Below, piece by piece: positions 128 to 31,455 of a DNA stretch of 37,933 bases. How positions within the stretch are numbered: position 1 is the first letter of the stretch; each line of letters opens with the position of its first letter. Made by a program: the position numbers and the translations under genes. This DNA is from a virus: positions 1-37,933 of the IMG/VR virus record IMGVR_UViG_3300020020_000017; one strand, written 5' to 3'. Below the pieces are notes generated by a model. It saw only the letters and a program-made list of their open reading frames with translations, was not told where the DNA came from and did no database searches.

Positions 128-596
128 GCATTCAAAATACTGTTCTGCAAAATGCAGGGATAAGTATAGACCAGATAGGCAGCCTAAAGGGTGTTATCAA
201 AAAGAGATAGCTTGCAAATTTTGTGGAGAATTATTTTTAGATAAGGCGAGACGATTAAAAGCTCAATTTTGCACAAGACAATGCTCTGGTATGTATATGA
301 TAGCTACTGGAAAAATGAATTATGTTACAAAGGCTTTAATTCATTATCCAAATATTTGTAATCGGTGTGGAATAAATGATGATATGGTTTTGTGTGTTCA
401 TCATATAGATCATGATAGGAGAAACAATCATATTGATAATTTAGAAGTTGTTTGTGCCAATTGTCATCACAAGCATCATTATGGACGTGGATTAACAAGA
501 AGACGTAAAATTGATTCAATAAGGAATTTTATCAATAAAAATCCAGAATGGAGGATTGAAGATGCCCCTTTTAAAAGGAAAAGCAGCGAAAAGTAA
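3..596 (+). CDS. HNH endonuclease (5' end wraps to 37797)
   Basis: This is the 3' part of a gene whose ATG lies at 37797 across the circular join, giving a protein of about 201 aa. Two treble-clef-like zinc motifs come first (CDHC...CSAKC and CKFC...CTRQC). The HNH core follows, with a CNRC pair, the VHHIDHD catalytic stretch, an N...NLEVVC segment and CANCHHKHH. HNH proteins coded beside the large terminase often assist packaging in tailed phages. The position directly upstream of TerL fits that role, but a free-standing homing nuclease is the alternative. The zinc knuckles and HNH core are seen directly; the packaging role is inferred. Confidence 0.88.
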   Translation, partial: KGKSNSGIKNLKKFEKGKSGYHFKRRKRNCDHCEIEYTTTVEHSKYCSAKCRDKYRPDRQPKGCYQKEIACKFCGELFLDKARRLKAQFCTRQCSGMYMIATGKMNYVTKALIHYPNICNRCGINDDMVLCVHHIDHDRRNNHIDNLEVVCANCHHKHHYGRGLTRRRKIDSIRNFINKNPEWRIEDAPFKRKSSEK

Positions 597-981: not shown

Positions 982-2556
982 ATGAAAATTGATTATGAAA
1001 AAGAACAAGAAGCTTCTCGCCTACGTGGTTCTCTCCTTGAGTTTACCCGTTACTTTTTTCGTCATATCACTGGCCGTGATTTCATTGTCTCCCAGCCAAT
1101 TGGACGAGAAAGCCATCATATTACTGTGTGCAGATCACTTACACAAATTAAAAGGCTTGAACTCTTAAGAGAAATAATTAATTTACCTCCCGGGTGTGGA
1201 AAATCAACTTTTGTTAGCATGTTTGTAGCATGGTGTTGGGCTGAATTTCCAGATTCAAATTTTCTATATATTTCATATGGACATGATCTTGCAACAAAGC
1301 ATACTACTTTTATTCGTTCAATTGTTTCATCACAAATGTATTCTTATTTATTCGATGTTGGTATTGATCCAGATAGCAGGGCTAAAGATCGATTTAAAAC
1401 GACTCATGGCGGTCAAATGAGAGCTTATGGGAGCTCAGGATCGGTGACTGGCCATGATGGAGGATGCCCGGGATTAGATAGATTCAGTGGCGCTGTAATC
1501 ATTGACGATGCGCATAAACCTGATGAAGCGCATTCCGATACTATTAGACAAGGTGTTATTGATAATTATGATGAAACAATAAGACAGCGTGTTCGTGGTA
1601 TTAATGTTCCTATTATTTATGTTGGTCAACGCGTACATGAATCAGATTTAACCGATTATTTAACGAGCGGTAAAGATGTAGATGAATGGCATACAACTAT
1701 ACTCCAAGGATTAGATATAGCTGGAAATGCTCTTTATCCTGAAATGATGCCCAAAGAAAAACTATTAGTATTGCAAGAGAAGTCTCCTTATGTTTTTGCA
1801 TCCCAATATCAACAAAATCCCTTACCTTCAGGCGGCGCATTATTTAAACCTGAATGGTTTGTTGAGTTAGATCAAGAGCCAGATATATTTTGTACATTTG
1901 TAATTGCGGATACAGCAGAAACAGAAAAATCCTGGAATGATGCTACTGTTTTTAGCTTTTTTGGCGTCTATGAAATAGAAAACTTTGGTAAGAAAATTGG
2001 AGAATTGGGATTGCACTGGCTAAATTGTATTGAATTGCGTATAGAACCTAAAGACTTAGAACAGGCATTTATCGATTTCTATGCAAATTGTACTTTGCAT
2101 CCTAAACCTCCGATGATTGCTGGAATAGAAAAAAAATCAACTGGTGTGACCCTTATTAGTACACTTAAGAATATTAGAGGTCTTCACATAAGGGAAATTG
2201 AACGCACCCGTGAATCAGGGAGCAAAACTAAAAGATTTCTTGAAATGCAGCCTTTTATTTCATCAAGACGTATTTCTTTTACCACTGGAGCTAGACATAT
2301 AGGAATGTGCACTACTCATATGTCAAAAATTACGGCAAATGAATCCCATTCATTTGATGATATAGCTGATACATTATCAGATGGTATACGTATCGCATTA
2401 ATTGAAAAAACAATATACAATATTGACAAGAGACAGGAGTCTCAAAAGCGAATGGTTCAAAATATGAATCAATCACTGCATCGAAAAATCAGAGCAGGAG
2501 AGGCAAGGAATGCCGGAACTCGCAAAGTTACATACAGACCGTTTACCCGATCTTAA
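982..2556 (+). CDS. Terminase large subunit (packaging ATPase/nuclease)
   Basis: A 524-aa packaging motor that pumps DNA into the prohead through the portal and cuts the concatemer. The ATPase domain shows Walker A LPPGCGKST at about residues 68-76 and Walker B AVIIDD at about 171-176. The C-terminal RNase H-like nuclease shows acidic positions in FVIADTAE (D310), GIEKK (E383) and SFDDIADTLSD (D459-D466). The length is normal for the family. The start lies behind a run of AAGG/TTAATTAA repeats at 930-980. The last 47 bp overlap the portal gene. The small subunit is not adjacent; it lies at 35396-35914, about 2.9 kb away across the circular join. Confidence 0.95.
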   Translation: MKIDYEKEQEASRLRGSLLEFTRYFFRHITGRDFIVSQPIGRESHHITVCRSLTQIKRLELLREIINLPPGCGKSTFVSMFVAWCWAEFPDSNFLYISYGHDLATKHTTFIRSIVSSQMYSYLFDVGIDPDSRAKDRFKTTHGGQMRAYGSSGSVTGHDGGCPGLDRFSGAVIIDDAHKPDEAHSDTIRQGVIDNYDETIRQRVRGINVPIIYVGQRVHESDLTDYLTSGKDVDEWHTTILQGLDIAGNALYPEMMPKEKLLVLQEKSPYVFASQYQQNPLPSGGALFKPEWFVELDQEPDIFCTFVIADTAETEKSWNDATVFSFFGVYEIENFGKKIGELGLHWLNCIELRIEPKDLEQAFIDFYANCTLHPKPPMIAGIEKKSTGVTLISTLKNIRGLHIREIERTRESGSKTKRFLEMQPFISSRRISFTTGARHIGMCTTHMSKITANESHSFDDIADTLSDGIRIALIEKTIYNIDKRQESQKRMVQNMNQSLHRKIRAGEARNAGTRKVTYRPFTRS

Positions 2557-4639
2557 AAAGTATGTTGAAGAAGCCCAGCAATACAATAACGAAAATGTTG
2601 AACGGTTTGAAAAATTTGTTAAGTTCGTATTTAAAACTTCTCTTTCAGATGAAGAAGCAGCGACACTTGCTGATAATGGTTACCCTACCCTTGAATTCAA
2701 CATATTAGAATCGTTTGTTTCTCGTAAACGCGGGGAATTTGCTAAACAACAACCCAGTTTAACTGTTCGTGCGGCTGATGGTATTCCATTGCCGATGTTA
2801 ACTCGTGAATTTACTGAGACATTAAAAGTCATAGAAGCCCATTTGCGCGCTATATTTTTTGACGGCGCCAATGATATGCTTGACTATAATGTATACAGTG
2901 ATTTATTAGCTGGCGGCTTTTCTGTTTTGCGCGTATTTACTGAATACGTTAATGAAATGAGCTTTGAGCAAAATATCTGTGTTGAACGTGTATTCGATCC
3001 TACACTTACTGTCTTTGATCCATTAGCGCGTAAATCACATAAAGGGGATGGTCGATTTTGCGCTGAACTTTATCCTATGACTCGAAAGCAATTTGAAGAC
3101 GAGTTTGGAGAAGAAATAGCCAAAGAAATGACTTATACCCGTGCATTGTCAGGCTTTGACTGGTCTTTTCAAAACGAAAAAGAAGAAATTGTTTTAGTAT
3201 GTGATTTTTATGAGAAAAAGACCAAACGTGCGACTATTTATAAATTATCAAATGGTCATAGCGTAACGAAAGACGAATATAAAAGATTTATTGAGGAATG
3301 GGAAAAAAGAGGATTGATTGAACAGCCACCTATTCCTATTAGCGAAAGAAAAACACTTATTGAATATATATGCCGCTATCGTTTTTGTGAAAGTCGTTTA
3401 TTAGATTTTAAAGAAACAGATTTCAAATTTTTACCCTTAGTTTTTGTTGATGGTAATAGTATTATCATCAAAGAATCTGGTACTTATACGCAGATGACTC
3501 GACCTTATGTTTATCATGCTGAAGGTATACAACGTTTAAAGAATTTTGCTGGTCAATCGCTTGGTAACGAGTTAGAAAATACAGTCCAACATAAATTTAT
3601 TGTAGCTGTTGAGTCTATTCCAGAGGATTACCAAGAAGCGTATCAGAATGTGCAAAAAGCTGATACATTAATGTACAATCATTTTTTAGATTCTAATAAT
3701 CCAAATGTAACTTTACCTCCTCCTCGTGAAGTCATGCGCACGCCTATTCCTCCTCAGATTTCAGATACGTTTAGGATGTCAGACGAAATGACCCAAACTA
3801 TTTTGGGATCATATGACATGGCTCAAGGAGTTAATCAAGGAGCTATGTCTGGTATTGCATTTGCTAGGAGCGCAATACAAGGCGATGCTACGTCTGTTCC
3901 TTATATCGTAGGTTATATTAAAGGGTTAAATAGAGTCGCTCAGATCATCATTGATTTGATTCCTAAGTACTATCGCACACCTAGAAGCTTGCCTATTCTT
4001 TTACCAAACGGTAAACGTTCATTTAAAGAGATAAATAAAAAAGGTTCTCTTTATATGAATTACGACCCTAATACTTTACAGGTTAAAGTTGAAACAGGGG
4101 TGAATTTCGCTATGCAAAAAGAAATGGCGCTCCAAACAGTTATTGCTATGTCGCAGGCAAATAAAGGCTTTGCAGACTTTTTTAATGAAGAAGGATTGCC
4201 CACACTTCTCGATAATATAGAAATGCGCGGTATAGATGAATTGAAAGAAAAAGCTAATGAATGGATGGCACAGCAAAAAGCAATGAAGCAACAAGCATCA
4301 CAAATGCAACAGATGCAAATGCAATCTGATGCTAAAAAGCAAGCTATGGAAATGGCGAAGCTTCAAAAAGAAGTTCAATCACCTTCTGATGGAGAAGTAG
4401 CTATTATGGCTATTCAAGAAAAATCTAAAGTTGATGCGGCTAATCTTGAGATTAAAGAAAGAGATTCTGAGACTAAATTTATTGAAACCATTAGTAAAAT
4501 TCGTAATGCAAACGTTCAAAATGAATTAAAGTCTGCTGAACTAGATGCTGAAAACACACGCAGCGCCGTGGAAGCTGCAATTAATATAAGTTCTCATATG
4601 AGAGAAACATTTAAAGGTCAAGAAAGTCGCAGTGAATAG
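2510..4639 (+). CDS. Portal protein, P22 gp1-like
   Basis: A 709-aa protein, close in size to P22 portal (725 aa). It forms the dodecameric ring at the capsid vertex. Support comes from length, position between TerL and scaffold, and portal-type sequence: the N-terminal SDEEAATLADNGYPTLEFN region, a central GNELENTVQHKF stretch, and a Gln/Met/Lys-rich helical C-terminus (about 590-640) resembling the P22 portal barrel. The ATG at 2510 lies inside TerL and has a strong upstream AGGAGAGGCAAGG ribosome site. The overlap implies coupled translation with TerL. Confidence 0.87.
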   Translation: MPELAKLHTDRLPDLKKYVEEAQQYNNENVERFEKFVKFVFKTSLSDEEAATLADNGYPTLEFNILESFVSRKRGEFAKQQPSLTVRAADGIPLPMLTREFTETLKVIEAHLRAIFFDGANDMLDYNVYSDLLAGGFSVLRVFTEYVNEMSFEQNICVERVFDPTLTVFDPLARKSHKGDGRFCAELYPMTRKQFEDEFGEEIAKEMTYTRALSGFDWSFQNEKEEIVLVCDFYEKKTKRATIYKLSNGHSVTKDEYKRFIEEWEKRGLIEQPPIPISERKTLIEYICRYRFCESRLLDFKETDFKFLPLVFVDGNSIIIKESGTYTQMTRPYVYHAEGIQRLKNFAGQSLGNELENTVQHKFIVAVESIPEDYQEAYQNVQKADTLMYNHFLDSNNPNVTLPPPREVMRTPIPPQISDTFRMSDEMTQTILGSYDMAQGVNQGAMSGIAFARSAIQGDATSVPYIVGYIKGLNRVAQIIIDLIPKYYRTPRSLPILLPNGKRSFKEINKKGSLYMNYDPNTLQVKVETGVNFAMQKEMALQTVIAMSQANKGFADFFNEEGLPTLLDNIEMRGIDELKEKANEWMAQQKAMKQQASQMQQMQMQSDAKKQAMEMAKLQKEVQSPSDGEVAIMAIQEKSKVDAANLEIKERDSETKFIETISKIRNANVQNELKSAELDAENTRSAVEAAINISSHMRETFKGQESRSE

Positions 4640-7947: not shown

Positions 7948-8658
7948 ATGACGTATATGACGACAGAGCTTATTACAGGATCGTATTATTCCTCTGGCGT
8001 CGTATCACGTGAATTTGAAACAGTCAGCGGAGGTCAAATATCAGATGGTCTTTTGTGGTTAAATGATATTTTGACTGAAAAAGATGTTGATCAAGGAATG
8101 ATACCTTACGAGAGTACCTATACGGCTAATTTCGTAACAGGACAGGAAGTCTACCCTATTCAAAACTTGACCCAGATCGATACGTTAGTATTCTTCCTGG
8201 ATCAAGTGCGTTATGCCATGAAATACACTAAGCGAAATCAATTTTTTGGATCAAGCCGTGTTGAAAATATAAGAACACTTCCTTTTGAATGGTATTGGGA
8301 AAGACAATTTGGCGGCGGAAATCTTCATATTTATTTTAAACCGGATAGAACTTATCCAATGGAAATTCATGGAGTTTTTAGATTAGATACGGTCATCTTG
8401 GGTCAAGATTTAAGTCTTACTATTGATCAATTTTATTTGACTTATTTGCGCTATGCTTTATCTGATCGAATTTGTTCTGAATATGAACTGGAAACACCAT
8501 TAAATGTAATGAGACAGCTTAGTAAATATGAATCATGGATTAACAAAAAATCAAGGACTCTTGATTTAATGATAAATAAAACCTCTACCTTGCAAAAACG
8601 TGGAGGATTGAATTACGGGTTCATTAACCTTGCAAAAGGATGGAAAAAACCCGGATAA
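7948..8658 (+). CDS. Tail accessory factor, P22 gp4-like
   Basis: A 236-aa protein in the position of P22 gp4, the first adaptor ring added to the portal after packaging. Features expected of head-tail connector adaptors are seen: an N-terminal helical part with SDGLLWLNDILTEKDVD, then a beta segment with YTANFVTGQEVYPIQNLTQID, and a C-terminal helix-rich end. The gp10-like hub gene follows directly. The ribosome site is AAAGG. It is longer than P22 gp4 (166 aa), as in many distant relatives. Confidence 0.77.
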   Translation: MTYMTTELITGSYYSSGVVSREFETVSGGQISDGLLWLNDILTEKDVDQGMIPYESTYTANFVTGQEVYPIQNLTQIDTLVFFLDQVRYAMKYTKRNQFFGSSRVENIRTLPFEWYWERQFGGGNLHIYFKPDRTYPMEIHGVFRLDTVILGQDLSLTIDQFYLTYLRYALSDRICSEYELETPLNVMRQLSKYESWINKKSRTLDLMINKTSTLQKRGGLNYGFINLAKGWKKPG

Positions 8659-24800: not shown

Positions 24801-26027
24801 CTATCCTTTTACACATAAAACTTGTTTCAGAGTGTAAACAATCTCAACAAGATCGGACTGTGCAGCCATGACAGCATCAATGTCTTTATAGGCCATTGGT
24901 GTTTCGTCGATGACATCTTCATCTTTCCTGCACTCAACGCCTTGGGTGGCCTTTGCATGATCTTCTAATGTGAAGCGTTTCTTGGCTTCATTACGGCTCA
25001 TTGACCGACCAGCGCCATGCGAGCATGAATGGAAACTCTCATCATTCCCTTTGCCGCGCACAATAAAGCTTTTAGCTCCCATTGAGCCAGGAATAATACC
25101 AAGATCGCCTTCACGTGCACGTACTGCGCCTTTACGAGTTACTAACACGTTAGAATCAAAATGGTTTTCTCGCTCTACATAATTGTGATGACAATTTATC
25201 GCCTTCTCAAGAATATAAGTTCGACTATATGCTTCTTTGAATTTATTTGTAAGAATGTTATGGACAAGATTCATCATTGCTTGACGATTAAAAAAAGCAA
25301 ATAATTGTGCCCAACCTACAGCTTCAATATAATCATTAAAAATATCACTTTTCTCAACTAAATAAGCTAAATCAATGTCAGGAATGAATTTATCAATATA
25401 ATACTTATGCATTTCTTCTTTGGCTTTTTCGATGAAATAACAGCCGATTTTATTACCTATTCCTCGACTTCCACTATGTAACATTACCCAGACATCTTGA
25501 TTCTGATCTAAGCACAGTTCTATAAAATGATTTCCAGTTCCTAATGTACCCATATGGTGCCAAGGTTCTTTACGTGGCTTTAAATCAGGATGTTTATTTA
25601 ATATAACTTGATAATCATCTTTTAACTGCACCCGAATAATATCGATCCATGGCGGTAAATCATGCCATGCTCCTCTATCAGTAGATCCGCCATTATCAGT
25701 ACGCCCATGCGGAATAGCGGCTTCAATAGCTGATCTAATAGATAATAAATTGTCGGGTAAATCACTAGCCTTAATAGGTGTCTTAATAGCCATCATACCA
25801 CAGCCAATATCAACACCTACAGCCGAAGGAATGATTGCACCTTTAGTAGCTATGACACTTCCTATTGTGGCACCCATGCCCCAGTGAACATCAGGCATAA
25901 CAGCAATATGCTTGTGGATAAAAGGCATTTTCGATACATTAATTAGTTGTTGTCTTGCGGAATCTTCAAGCTGAACTCCATCAATCCAAGCCTTAATTGG
26001 TTTTCCACCTTCTATAAAGATTTTCAT
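24801..26027 (-). CDS. rtcB: RNA-splicing ligase RtcB
   Basis: 408 aa from the internal ATG at 26027 (MKIFIEGGKPIKAWIDG); this equals E. coli RtcB in length, so the longer frame to 26060 is not needed. RtcB joins RNA 2',3'-cyclic phosphate or 3'-phosphate ends to 5'-OH ends using GTP and Mn2+. Key sites are present: GVDIGCGM (C76), GTLGTGNHFIE, LHSGSRGIGN, NCHHNY, IPGSMGAKSFIV, and SCSHGAGRSMSR with the guanylated histidine at 337. The C-terminus (PMAYKDIDAVMAAQSDLVE) is nearly identical to E. coli. In a phage it may repair tRNAs cut by host defences. Confidence 0.96.
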   Translation of the reverse strand: MKIFIEGGKPIKAWIDGVQLEDSARQQLINVSKMPFIHKHIAVMPDVHWGMGATIGSVIATKGAIIPSAVGVDIGCGMMAIKTPIKASDLPDNLLSIRSAIEAAIPHGRTDNGGSTDRGAWHDLPPWIDIIRVQLKDDYQVILNKHPDLKPRKEPWHHMGTLGTGNHFIELCLDQNQDVWVMLHSGSRGIGNKIGCYFIEKAKEEMHKYYIDKFIPDIDLAYLVEKSDIFNDYIEAVGWAQLFAFFNRQAMMNLVHNILTNKFKEAYSRTYILEKAINCHHNYVERENHFDSNVLVTRKGAVRAREGDLGIIPGSMGAKSFIVRGKGNDESFHSCSHGAGRSMSRNEAKKRFTLEDHAKATQGVECRKDEDVIDETPMAYKDIDAVMAAQSDLVEIVYTLKQVLCVKG

Positions 26028-26041
26028 TAAAAAAATATTCC

Positions 26042-26272
26042 TTATCTTGTTTTTTTCCAATCGTCACGCATTTGTTTTTTTTCTTCATCGGAAAATTGAC
26101 CAAACCAAAATTTAAATAATTCATTGCAATCGTCACACAACACGTCTGTGGGATCATTCTTTGTTTCAGGATATAATGTTAATAACTCCTCCGCTGCATC
26201 GACATCGTTCCATTCTTCATAAGGACGTTTCTCGTAGGTGTTATTGCACTTGCAGCAAGTAAATTCACTCAT
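26042..26272 (-). CDS. Small zinc-ribbon protein, 76 aa
   Basis: An N-terminal CCKC pair and a later CDDC pair about 40 residues on (TCCKCNNTYEKR ... VLCDDCNELF) form a likely zinc ribbon. An acidic/aromatic tail (KFWFGQFSDEEKKQM) follows. It lies directly upstream of rtcB, whose possible longer start would overlap it. The partner or target is not known. Confidence 0.62.
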   Translation of the reverse strand: MSEFTCCKCNNTYEKRPYEEWNDVDAAEELLTLYPETKNDPTDVLCDDCNELFKFWFGQFSDEEKKQMRDDWKKTR

Positions 26273-30045: not shown

Positions 30046-30083
30046 TTCATGCCTACTTGATGTTTAGTTCATTTATTTTTGAA

Positions 30084-30185
30084 GAAATCGGTTGGATTCG
30101 AACCAGCTCATGAGCACCCTTCCAGTCCACGCTCAAATTCAACTGCTAGCTTTAGGGTTGCGTTTTCTACAACGCCGCGATTTCC
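30084..30185 (-). ncRNA. Structured RNA element A (leader of exonuclease gene)
   Basis: On the minus strand a 5' GAAATCG pairs with a 3' CGATTTC (7 bp). A CG linker, a 5-bp hairpin GCGTT-gtagaa-AACGC (30160-30175) and, at the 3' end, a TpsiC-like arm with loop TTCGAAT directly beside the closing helix follow. A possible GAGCG/TGCTC helix lies between. It is the same plan as B, C and E. The layout is tRNA-like, but there is no D-loop GG and no normal anticodon arm. It ends 38 bases before the exonuclease ATG. Confidence 0.72.
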
Positions 30186-30190
30186 ATAAC

Positions 30191-30484
30191 TTATTTTACA
30201 AAATCTACTTTTTTTATAAAAAGTAAATTTTCTATTGATTTTAAAATGGAATTTTTAGCTAATTCAATATTTTTAATTAGCTTATCTTCTCCTTCTGTAT
30301 TTTCCTTAATAGCATCTAAAATATTTACTAATGAACTTATAAAAACTCCTAAAATCATATTTAATAGTGGTGAAGTATTAATATCACCAGATAATTCTGG
30401 ATAAGAAGACAACTTATTTAAAAATTCTTTTGTTAAGTATTCTGATACTTTTGGGATAAGATGGTCAAATGTATTATTTTTCAA
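30191..30484 (-). CDS. Hypothetical 97-aa helical protein
   Basis: TTG start at 30484 behind an AGAGGA site; the next in-frame ATG would remove about 40 residues. It is helical, with a moderately hydrophobic middle (LLNMILGVFISSLVNILDAI) and a charged C-terminus. It lies alone between RNA elements B and A. No family is recognised. The weak start codon and the RNA element ending 23 bases upstream suggest controlled expression. Confidence 0.55.
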   Translation of the reverse strand: MKNNTFDHLIPKVSEYLTKEFLNKLSSYPELSGDINTSPLLNMILGVFISSLVNILDAIKENTEGEDKLIKNIELAKNSILKSIENLLFIKKVDFVK

Positions 30485-30506
30485 AAAAAGTCCTCTAAAA
30501 ATTTTA

Positions 30507-30672
30507 GAAAATCGGCCGGAATTGCACCGGCTATGAATATTTTAAGCAGTTGAGCATAATCGCTTTAGGTTTATATGCATTCCTACTTTCATCATATTTT
30601 ATCAAAAACACTATCAAGTCTGAAAGTTTCCTTGATAGCTATTCCAGTGTCACTGTCCACTGCGCGATTTCC
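30507..30672 (-). ncRNA. Structured RNA element B (leader of the 97-aa gene)
   Basis: 5' GGAAATCG pairs with 3' CGATTTTC. A CG linker is followed by hairpin CAGTG-GACAGTGA-CACTG (30645-30662). An 8-bp hairpin CTATCAAG/CTTGATAG is next, then GCATA/TATGC. The last arm is GCCGG-TGCAATT-CCGGC (30515-30531), directly stacked on the closing helix. The element ends about 10 bases before the ribosome site of the gene at 30484. The last arm also resembles hairpin P6 of cobalamin riboswitches, but the rest of that core is absent. Confidence 0.78.
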
Positions 30673-30982
30673 ATAACTGGCGGCCAATTTTCCCAAGCAG
30701 AGATTCCGCGAATGCTCCAATCCTTCCTAGGTGATTAGATGTTACATTAGTATCTTCGGCCATAATCTTTTCTATAATTAAACTGTCGCCTGTCTCTCCA
30801 AGCTGTCACGCCTCTGCTTTTCGCAAGTGTCCGGCTGCAAGTCCTCCGGCGTTCTACACCACTCTGTTTAGGTGCCGTTTCCATCTACCCGACACGTGCT
30901 TGGGGTAGCCATCAGTTACTTCCTTTTTTAAGGGAAACGCACGTGATCGAACTGGTAACGCTATTATCTATTATGATTCATT
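30673..30982 (-). other. Structured intergenic stretch between RNA elements C and B
   Basis: No protein gene is supported here. Visible structure: CGTTTCC/GGAAACG (30876-30882 with 30933-30939) enclosing CTACCC/GGGTAG (30885-30890 with 30903-30908). CACGTGC/GCACGTG (30893-30899 with 30939-30945) could form a competing or pseudoknot pairing. On the minus strand, GGAAACG is then followed by a CACC/GGTG hairpin, recalling the 5' part of the other elements, but no matching closing 3' strand was found. It may be a diverged or rearranged copy. Confidence 0.4.
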
Positions 30983-31155
30983 GGAAACAGGCCGGAATTG
31001 CACCGGCTATTCGGCTATCGGGTTTCTCAACCTAACGGATTTAAAATCCGTATATTCTATTGTTAGCGTTTCAATTCAGCATCTTATGATCCGTTTCAGA
31101 GCTAACCACCTATGACCGTTGGTCTTTGCATATCACTGTCTATGCCGCGATTTCC
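30983..31155 (-). ncRNA. Structured RNA element C
   Basis: 5' GGAAATCG pairs with 3' CTGTTTCC (one mismatch, one G-U). The CG linker is followed by GCATA-GACAGTGA-TATGC (31128-31145). Inner helices are GTTAGC/GCTAAC and ACGGAT/ATCCGT. The 3' arm GCCGG-TGCAATT-CCGGC (30991-31007) lies beside the closing helix. It shares a 21-base exact block (30990-31010) with element B (30514-30534). A good sigma70 promoter places the transcription start at its first bases, so this is the first element of the leftward transcript. Confidence 0.77.
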
Positions 31156-31162
31156 AGTTGCA

Positions 31163-31191
31163 ATAATGCAACAAATACTTTACCCTGTCAA
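31163..31191 (-). promoter_or_regulatory. Leftward promoter for RNA elements and early operon
   Basis: On the minus strand TTGACA (31186-31191), a 17-bp spacer and CATTAT (31163-31168) are seen. The start point is expected about 7 bases on, at the GGAAATCG that opens element C. A GTTGCA-ataa-TGCAAC inverted repeat (31157-31172) overlaps the -10 box and start, and CTGTCAAC/GTTGACAG flanks the -35. Both are candidate operator sites. Confidence 0.7.
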
Positions 31192-31192
31192 C

Positions 31193-31290
31193 AGGAATTA
31201 GCGTTGTTGACAGTGAAATAAATGAAATCATTAACTGAAGCGAGAGAATCCAGCCGACTAGGTTTAATTTCAGTTTCGTGCCTAATTCCT
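31193..31290 (+). ncRNA. Structured RNA element F
   Basis: AGGAATTAG pairs with CTAATTCCT (9 bp perfect). The CG linker is followed by TTGTT-GACAGTGA-AATAA (31204-31221), whose loop is identical to that of B and C. An AACTGAA/TTCAGTT helix (7 bp) follows. Unlike A, B, C and E, no TpsiC-like arm is evident before the closing strand. It is on the plus strand, directly followed by element E, so the two would form a tandem leader. Confidence 0.7.
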
Positions 31291-31298
31291 ATTTTATG

Positions 31299-31432
31299 AC
31301 AATCGCGGCGTGGAAGGAACACGCAGGTGTCAATACTGATAATGGCTGGAGACTATAACCCGCATAGATACCGCACACAGCAATCAGTTAGGTTGAAAGG
31401 CTATGCAATCAGGTGCAATTCCTGACGATTGT
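31299..31432 (+). ncRNA. Structured RNA element E (leader of gene at 31456)
   Basis: ACAATCG pairs with CGATTGT (7 bp perfect). The CG linker is followed by GCGTG-gaaggaa-CACGC (31308-31324). A GCATAG/CTATGC helix comes later, then the arm TCAGG-TGCAATT-CCTGA (31409-31425) stacked on the closing helix. Stem sequences differ from those of A-C, but pairing is kept, which is covariation. The element ends 11 bases before the AAAGGAG ribosome site of the next gene, the spacing expected of a translational control element. Confidence 0.77.
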
Positions 31433-31455
31433 TTATTTATTTAAAGGAGTGTTTA

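Follow-up and report, generated by a model that had tools for sequence, protein, structure and literature searches.

A new family of RNAs built on a tRNA frame is encoded by phages, and five of its members (elements A, B, C, E and F) lie in the stretch of DNA analysed here (the window), a phage record of 37,933 bases. We collected 132, and later 136, distinct elements from about 120 loci, almost all of them on phage contigs of IMG/VR. These elements share a plan: a closing helix of 7-8 bp, a CG linker and a 5-bp D-like arm (loop consensus GAC(A/G)G(T/C)GA) are followed by a hypervariable insert and finally by a T arm, whose loop reads TGCAATT. An earlier note on the window had proposed a tRNA-like RNA family with an invariant plan and compensating changes, and this proposal is supported by the ~120 loci and their covariation. 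The separate parts, namely the T loop, the elbow and the CCA end, are already familiar; the open-access literature, to which our search was confined, holds no description of the family.

Pairing and distribution of the family

The family was gathered by pattern scans of IMG/VR for the T arm and for the D-like arm, together with one genome scan. In an alignment of 39 rows, from most of which the insert had been removed, 99.1% of the cells were paired and 16 of the 17 pairs carried two-sided changes. Double-change cells numbered 194 in this alignment, compared with 46 in shuffles, and the covariation score was 0.81, against 0.19 for shuffled data and approximately 0.1 after a one-column slide; covariation across homologues was therefore very strong. 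As the descriptor itself demands pairing, we repeated the pairing test without it, anchored on the D-like arm alone. Under these conditions, 68 of 88 distinct contexts had a 7/7 matching acceptor beside a T arm, with 43 different acceptors represented, whereas only 7.7% matched when the acceptors were swapped among the D-like-arm contexts. An eighth acceptor pair was present in 122 of the 136 elements (77 expected from shuffling).

Two-sided helix changes also bear on the idea that the elements are coding sequence, in which an ATG at -3 would open a short conserved peptide. While 74 of 136 copies are preceded by ATG or ACG, 66 of the 74 frames meet a stop after 2-35 codons, at scattered positions, and the D-like loop varies in length from 6 to 10 nt, which shifts the frame. 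We consider the coding reading refuted by these features and leave it next to no probability.

Among genome contigs, true elements were found only in three MAG contigs, from Planctomycetota (L105), Chloroflexi (L107) and Legionella (L113), and the remaining matches were due to chance or coding sequence. The 112 genomes of the Legionella MAG's family gave only weak, tRNA-sized matches and no chromosomal copies; a class-wide chromosomal search missed its own positive and is uninformative. No true copy was found in isolates by short-query BLAST of INPHARED and PLSDB, in which 30-base queries are weak, and two phage BLAST matches that we inspected lay inside annotated genes and failed the descriptor. 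Neighbouring genes are mostly co-directional with the elements, and no constant partner was found among them.

Five elements between divergent early operons

Genes in the window include those for terminase, portal, major head protein, RecE/RecT, an RtcB RNA ligase (24801-26060, minus strand; phrog_1075, E 1e-146) and replication proteins. The array of elements sits between the divergent early operons of this phage: C, a unit of a second kind (the GGCC-type unit, see below), B and A point leftward, towards RecE, and F and E point rightward, towards the first rightward genes, with E directly before the rightward early genes.

A covariance model recovered all five elements where the earlier note had placed them. 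On the minus strand, these are C (30983-31155, 120-nt insert; match 31154-30984, 45.0 bits; also found by the descriptor), B (30507-30672, 113-nt insert, arm loop GACAGTGA, T loop TGCAATT; match 30671-30508, 51.7 bits) and the divergent A (30083-30185, 52-nt insert, T loop TTCGAAT, D loop GTAGAA; match 30184-30084, 26.5 bits). On the plus strand, F occupies 31193-31290 (closing helix AGGAATTAG/CTAATTCCT, arm loop GACAGTGA; match 31195-31288, 26.6 bits) and E 31298-31433 (84-nt insert, loop GAAGGAA, T loop TGCAATT; match 31299-31432, 44.1 bits). The training rows of the model included close relatives of B, E and F, so that the independent matches are those of A and C. With ~26.5 bits, A and F fall into a range that 73-nt, tRNA-sized matches in bacterial genomes also reach, and their assignment therefore rests on position and homologues and not on the score alone. 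A descriptor built solely on the plan of the earlier note recovered A, B, C and E in the window, and 100 dinucleotide shuffles of the region gave no match of equal score.

The stems and loops quoted in the earlier note proved correct (GACAGTGA in B, C and F, GAAGGAA in E and GTAGAA in A), and T arms are indeed confined to A, B, C and E. The closing helices were found as quoted, except that the helix of C contains one mismatch, and the stretch replacing the anticodon domain, given as 40-115 bases, has to be corrected to inserts of 52-120 nt. F has lost its T arm in the window, whereas its homologue in the nearly identical phages L002, L004 and L005 retains it (GTACG TGCAATT CGTGC). B and E are conserved at 98% and 98.7%, respectively, in L002, L003 and L005. 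The homologue of A at 1248-1146 of L046 differs in acceptor and T stem and is still paired, and the insert class of C recurs with compensating changes in L054.

Folding energy alone is a poor guide to the elements: relative to shuffles, B was clearly more stable (z -4.3), but A (z -0.4) and E (z -0.9) were no better. Unconstrained minimum-energy folds of A, B and E give the proposed plan, while that of C is an alternative with both arms and without the closing helix.

The best promoter-like site of the region, a strong one and a predicted leftward early promoter (TTGACA-17-CATTAT; 31163-31191, minus strand), reads straight into C, which would place the beginning of C at about the predicted +1 of the leftward transcript; overall, the region is no richer in promoter-like sites than shuffles. 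A palindrome, GTTGCAATAATGCAAC, lies over this promoter (31157-31172, no strand assigned) and is likely an operator. This setting raises the question of whether the elements might be leader RNAs that act on transcription, as lambdoid nut or HK022 put antiterminators do. C and E/F do flank the divergent promoter region, and a domain of the C insert recurs in the leftward leader in another phage (L006), but the copies of most phages lie between genes of many kinds or in tRNA arrays rather than at promoters, and CCA ends would be left unexplained. We regard this reading as quite improbable.

Further sequences were noted in and around this region. The stretch of ~220 nt between C and the GGCC-type unit (30762-30982, minus strand) is 98% conserved in L004 and contains several self-complementary stretches, so that it appears structured; it has no match in Rfam, which also leaves a hammerhead-like reading of this stretch unsupported. 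Between the homologues of E and F, L005 carries a long, GCC-rich repetitive stretch with an extra reading frame (~2937-3700) that is absent from the window. In L054, a near-perfect hairpin of ~17 bp (8297-8341) upstream of the element is probably a bidirectional terminator.

A tRNA-like elbow and tRNA-precursor-like ends

The T loop reads TGCAATT in 110 of 132 elements, and the others have the tRNA-like loops TTCAATT, TTCGAAT or TTCGACT. The D-like loop is GACAGTGA in 99 of the 132. The two loops vary together: a G as the fourth base of the D-like loop (GACG) occurs only with T at the second place of the T loop (TTC), that is, in 9 of 15 such elements compared with 0 of 110 (p 3e-10, a value inflated by the relatedness of the phages, even though the nine cases carry eight different acceptors). 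Bases 18 and 55 of tRNA touch each other. The coupled positions would correspond to these two bases, and the coupling therefore suggests that the same contact, that of the tRNA elbow, is formed in the elements. It also qualifies the claim that a D-loop GG is missing: AG does stand there, as the usual counterpart of GG where the T loop has G for T, but its A becomes G in some members, all of which have a TTC T loop.

Conservation of the flanks is restricted to approximately -7 to +10, with R-T-T-T-A-T-G before the element and C-A-C/A followed by a T-rich stretch after it; each base of the T-T-A-T|G junction is conserved at 56-69%. The ends resemble those of tRNA precursors, with U at -1, G1 paired with C72 and A at 73. 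A templated CCA is present at the tRNA position in 19 of 136 copies, compared with 2% expected; the other 117 are without it, and many copies that come last in an array end in A-C-T-T-T. The tRNA-like features of the elements thus comprise the acceptor, the T arm, the D/T elbow coupling and, in the 19 copies, the CCA end.

Hypervariable inserts

Across the family, the inserts measure 29-254 nt, and a family-wide comparison revealed neither a common insert sequence nor a common anticodon loop. The last base of the insert is nevertheless A in 131 of 132 elements. A helix (score 14 or more) ends within 4 bases of the T arm in 41% of elements, compared with 18% in shuffles and 15-21% at other anchors. 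A pseudoknot involving the bases that follow the D-like arm was found in 57% (22% in the control); since a nested control was also raised (37% versus 19%), such pseudoknots are likely to form often in the inserts according to these sequence comparisons, but are not established copy by copy. The same insert class can occur with different acceptors, as in L034, L129, L155 and L156.

Some inserts contain recognizable parts. One domain of the C insert (stem-TCTGGAATGGGTCGAAAGATGCCA.ACTGAAAC-stem) is present, without the tRNA-like frame, in the leftward leader of RecE in L006, where the stem is different but paired, and it is also found at 8548-8719 of L054. In L256 (~2515, plus strand), L088 (3057-3248) and L221 (1699-1825), the inserts enclose tRNA pieces such as extra T arms and parts of a tRNA body, as if nested.

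Arrays with tRNAs and further structured units

Eighteen elements have a tRNA gene at a distance of less than 600 nt, and all 18 are on the same strand as that gene. In L035, the array consists of a structured unit, an element, a true tRNA-Gln and another element, and all spacers read CCA-GTTTAT-G. In L218, L219, L220, L047, L081 and other loci, this spacer accompanies additional units of different kinds.

One such unit is the GGCC-type unit of the window (30678-30761, minus strand), which has the form GGCC-GAAGATA-CT...insert...GG-GAAAATT-GGCC-G-CCA and is joined to B by CCA-GTTAT-G. The same frame is found in 41 distinct copies in viral contigs (for example L218, L219, L220, L071, L081 and L270), with the consensus GGCC-GACGATA-CT [variable insert] GG-GAAAATA-GGCC-R-CCA, TTTAT before it and often a next unit after it. 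The inner helix of this GGCC family covaries: pairs 3 to 6 vary and are paired in 59-78% of cases, compared with 35-44% expected. Among the loci with a GGCC unit, 12 of 37, the window included, also carry a tRNA-like element recognized by the descriptor, and the interior of the unit in L256 contains the T arm and acceptor of a tRNA-like body.

Other structured RNAs were observed in the same contigs. A third conserved unit, GGGGAGAGAAGGG..AAGTAAGCGTACGATGAAAT..CGGTATAACTCGCGGCCTCTTCCCC, lies between TTTATG spacers in L047 (~250-350, plus strand), L006/L045, L218 and L219; an exact 18-mer of it occurs in four contigs only. L172 (~1570-1760, plus strand) has a tRNA-like unit in which a 9-bp closing helix is immediately followed by two T-type hairpins; it may be a permuted or split tRNA, and this phage also encodes RtcB. 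Finally, L078, whose contig also holds a tRNA-like element, contains a type II hammerhead ribozyme (8877-8813, minus strand; 40 bits, above the Rfam cut-off).

These observations matter for the view that the elements are cis-acting punctuation, i.e., mere RNase P/tRNase cut sites or 5' caps in early polycistronic mRNAs that set ends or stability, with a functionless insert. The elements are intergenic and co-directional with their neighbours, C starts near the predicted start of the leftward transcript, and flanks and CCA are tRNA-like, all of which would fit. However, punctuation leaves unexplained the anchored insert helix and the pseudoknot signal, the reuse of insert classes on different acceptors (in the four phages mentioned above) and the several different CCA-ended RNAs that stand side by side in arrays, and we consider it unlikely.

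Comparison with known RNAs

The earlier note knew of no named RNA family with this plan, and our searches agree: at gathering score, Rfam had no match in the window, to which cmscan assigned nothing, and matched only true tRNAs in 14 further loci. ARAGORN found no tRNA in the window, and the Rfam tRNA model at gathering score matched only neighbouring true tRNAs and none of the elements. By the tests run, the elements are neither tRNAs nor tmRNAs.

The nearest known family is RAGATH-21 (RF03097), which likewise has a T arm with a UGCAAUU loop stacked on the closing helix. In addition, the insert of C contains an AAUAGAA-hairpin-AGGUUGA stretch as in RAGATH-21, giving this element a RAGATH-21-like 3' half; the RAGATH-21 model, unlike our family, has no D-like arm. 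Against a cut-off of 70.3 bits, the best score was 19.5 bits, reached by C alone under permissive thresholds, while most other elements had no match, and a search of 40 records gave weak matches only. RAGATH-21 could be a branch of a larger tRNA-like family.

Like the elements, the tRNA-like domain of tmRNA has a large insert where a tRNA would carry its anticodon arm, next to an acceptor, a D side and a T arm, and tmRNA shares pseudoknots and the D-loop letters GAC(A/G)G with them. The elements differ from tmRNA in having a true 5-bp D-like stem and in lacking a tag frame and the alanine G-U pair. A tmRNA-like or SmpB-binding decoy, that is, an RNA that blocks trans-translation, would account for these D-loop letters and pseudoknots and for the TTCGACT T loop of some copies; against it, there was no Rfam tmRNA match up to E 3, the acceptor has no conserved G-U pair and no tag frame is conserved. 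We hold such a decoy to be improbable.

The bacterial Y RNA YrlA resembles the elements in that a tRNA-like domain is joined to a non-tRNA module. The ends of YrlA lie in the Y stem, those of the elements in the acceptor; YrlA gave no match among the Rfam families searched, although Rfam itself may hold no YrlA model. The 8+5 bp acceptor/T stack is shared with tRNA-Sec, whose model scored C and the L046 homologue of A at 19-27 bits, below the 47-bit cut-off; unlike tRNA-Sec, the elements show no anticodon arm. We know of no array or shared T/D arms for the phi80 M3 and P1/P7 C4 RNAs, which differ from the elements as single RNAs without a tRNA-like chassis. M3 RNA of phi80 and the C4 antisense RNA of P1/P7 are non-tRNA phage RNAs matured by RNase P (PMC11143913).

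The RtcB gene of the window invites the reading that the elements are genuine tRNAs whose anticodon loops hold introns, to be spliced by a phage ligase of this kind. The tRNA-like ends would agree, and in A a 5-bp helix lies one base beyond the D-like arm, a position like that of an anticodon stem. Opposing this, neither ARAGORN nor Rfam sees a tRNA at the elements, and the shortest inserts (29-39 nt) lack an anticodon loop with U33 on a proper stem. RtcB itself was present in 1 of 50 other element-bearing records and thus absent from 49, compared with 0 of 40 comparison records (90 records, some of them fragments, and a few of the 40 also hold elements). On these counts we dropped a general link to RtcB, and the intron-tRNA reading, largely refuted, is very improbable.

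Proposed mechanism and role

Taking the sequence evidence together, we think that the elements are probably phage RNAs carried on a tRNA chassis and set free by tRNA maturation, and that the insert is the part that acts. By comparison of the copies, the chassis consists of the 7-8 bp acceptor, two linker bases, the D-like arm and a T arm, which would stack on the acceptor and dock to the D-like loop; the hypervariable insert of ~30-250 nt, whose last helix ends a few bases before the T arm, replaces the anticodon arm. The elements are encoded in sense direction inside operons and tRNA arrays; in the window phage, their position would put them at the start of both divergent early transcripts. 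Host RNase P would cut at TTTAT|G, and 3' trimming or a templated CCA would then yield stable small RNAs. Release by host tRNA maturation is the most likely route given the pairing, the flanks and the CCA. According to this proposal, the chassis would provide stability and processing, and the insert would do the work. Counting against the proposal are the many copies without a templated CCA, as well as the C8-G9 linker, the mostly absent canonical D-loop GG and the 8+5 stack, three features that could weaken recognition by some tRNA enzymes.

As to the work itself, the combination of a constant frame with a fast-changing insert, reminiscent of an arms race, leads us to favour tRNA-handling host proteins as the targets of the insert. 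The RNAs might occupy or divert such proteins, for example tRNA-cutting defence nucleases, early in infection, a role that we advance as speculative. The rarity of phage RtcB, which would fit a tRNA-damage theme, among element-bearing records argues against it. In Salmonella, YrlA is encoded beside RtcB, and its tRNA-like domain has been put forward as a candidate inhibitor of an anticodon nuclease (PMC7790460); this suggestion is a parallel to the elements and not evidence for their role.

More broadly, we tentatively envisage multi-unit arrays of CCA-ended RNAs on at least two frames, tRNA-like and GGCC, in which fast-changing structured inserts are swapped like cartridges; the RNAs would be matured by the host tRNA machinery, and the inserts may be aimed at various components of the host, tRNA-directed defences for instance. 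We know of no system that matches such frame-plus-cartridge arrays.

The family is well supported, common in uncultivated phages and missing from Rfam, which points to a large blank in phage RNA biology; tRNA finders and Rfam overlook many structured units in phage tRNA arrays. The model, the sharp ends and the predicted cut sites offer a clear route to finding out by experiment how these early RNAs act. If the proposed mechanism is true, phages exploit the body of tRNA as a frame in which other RNAs are matured.
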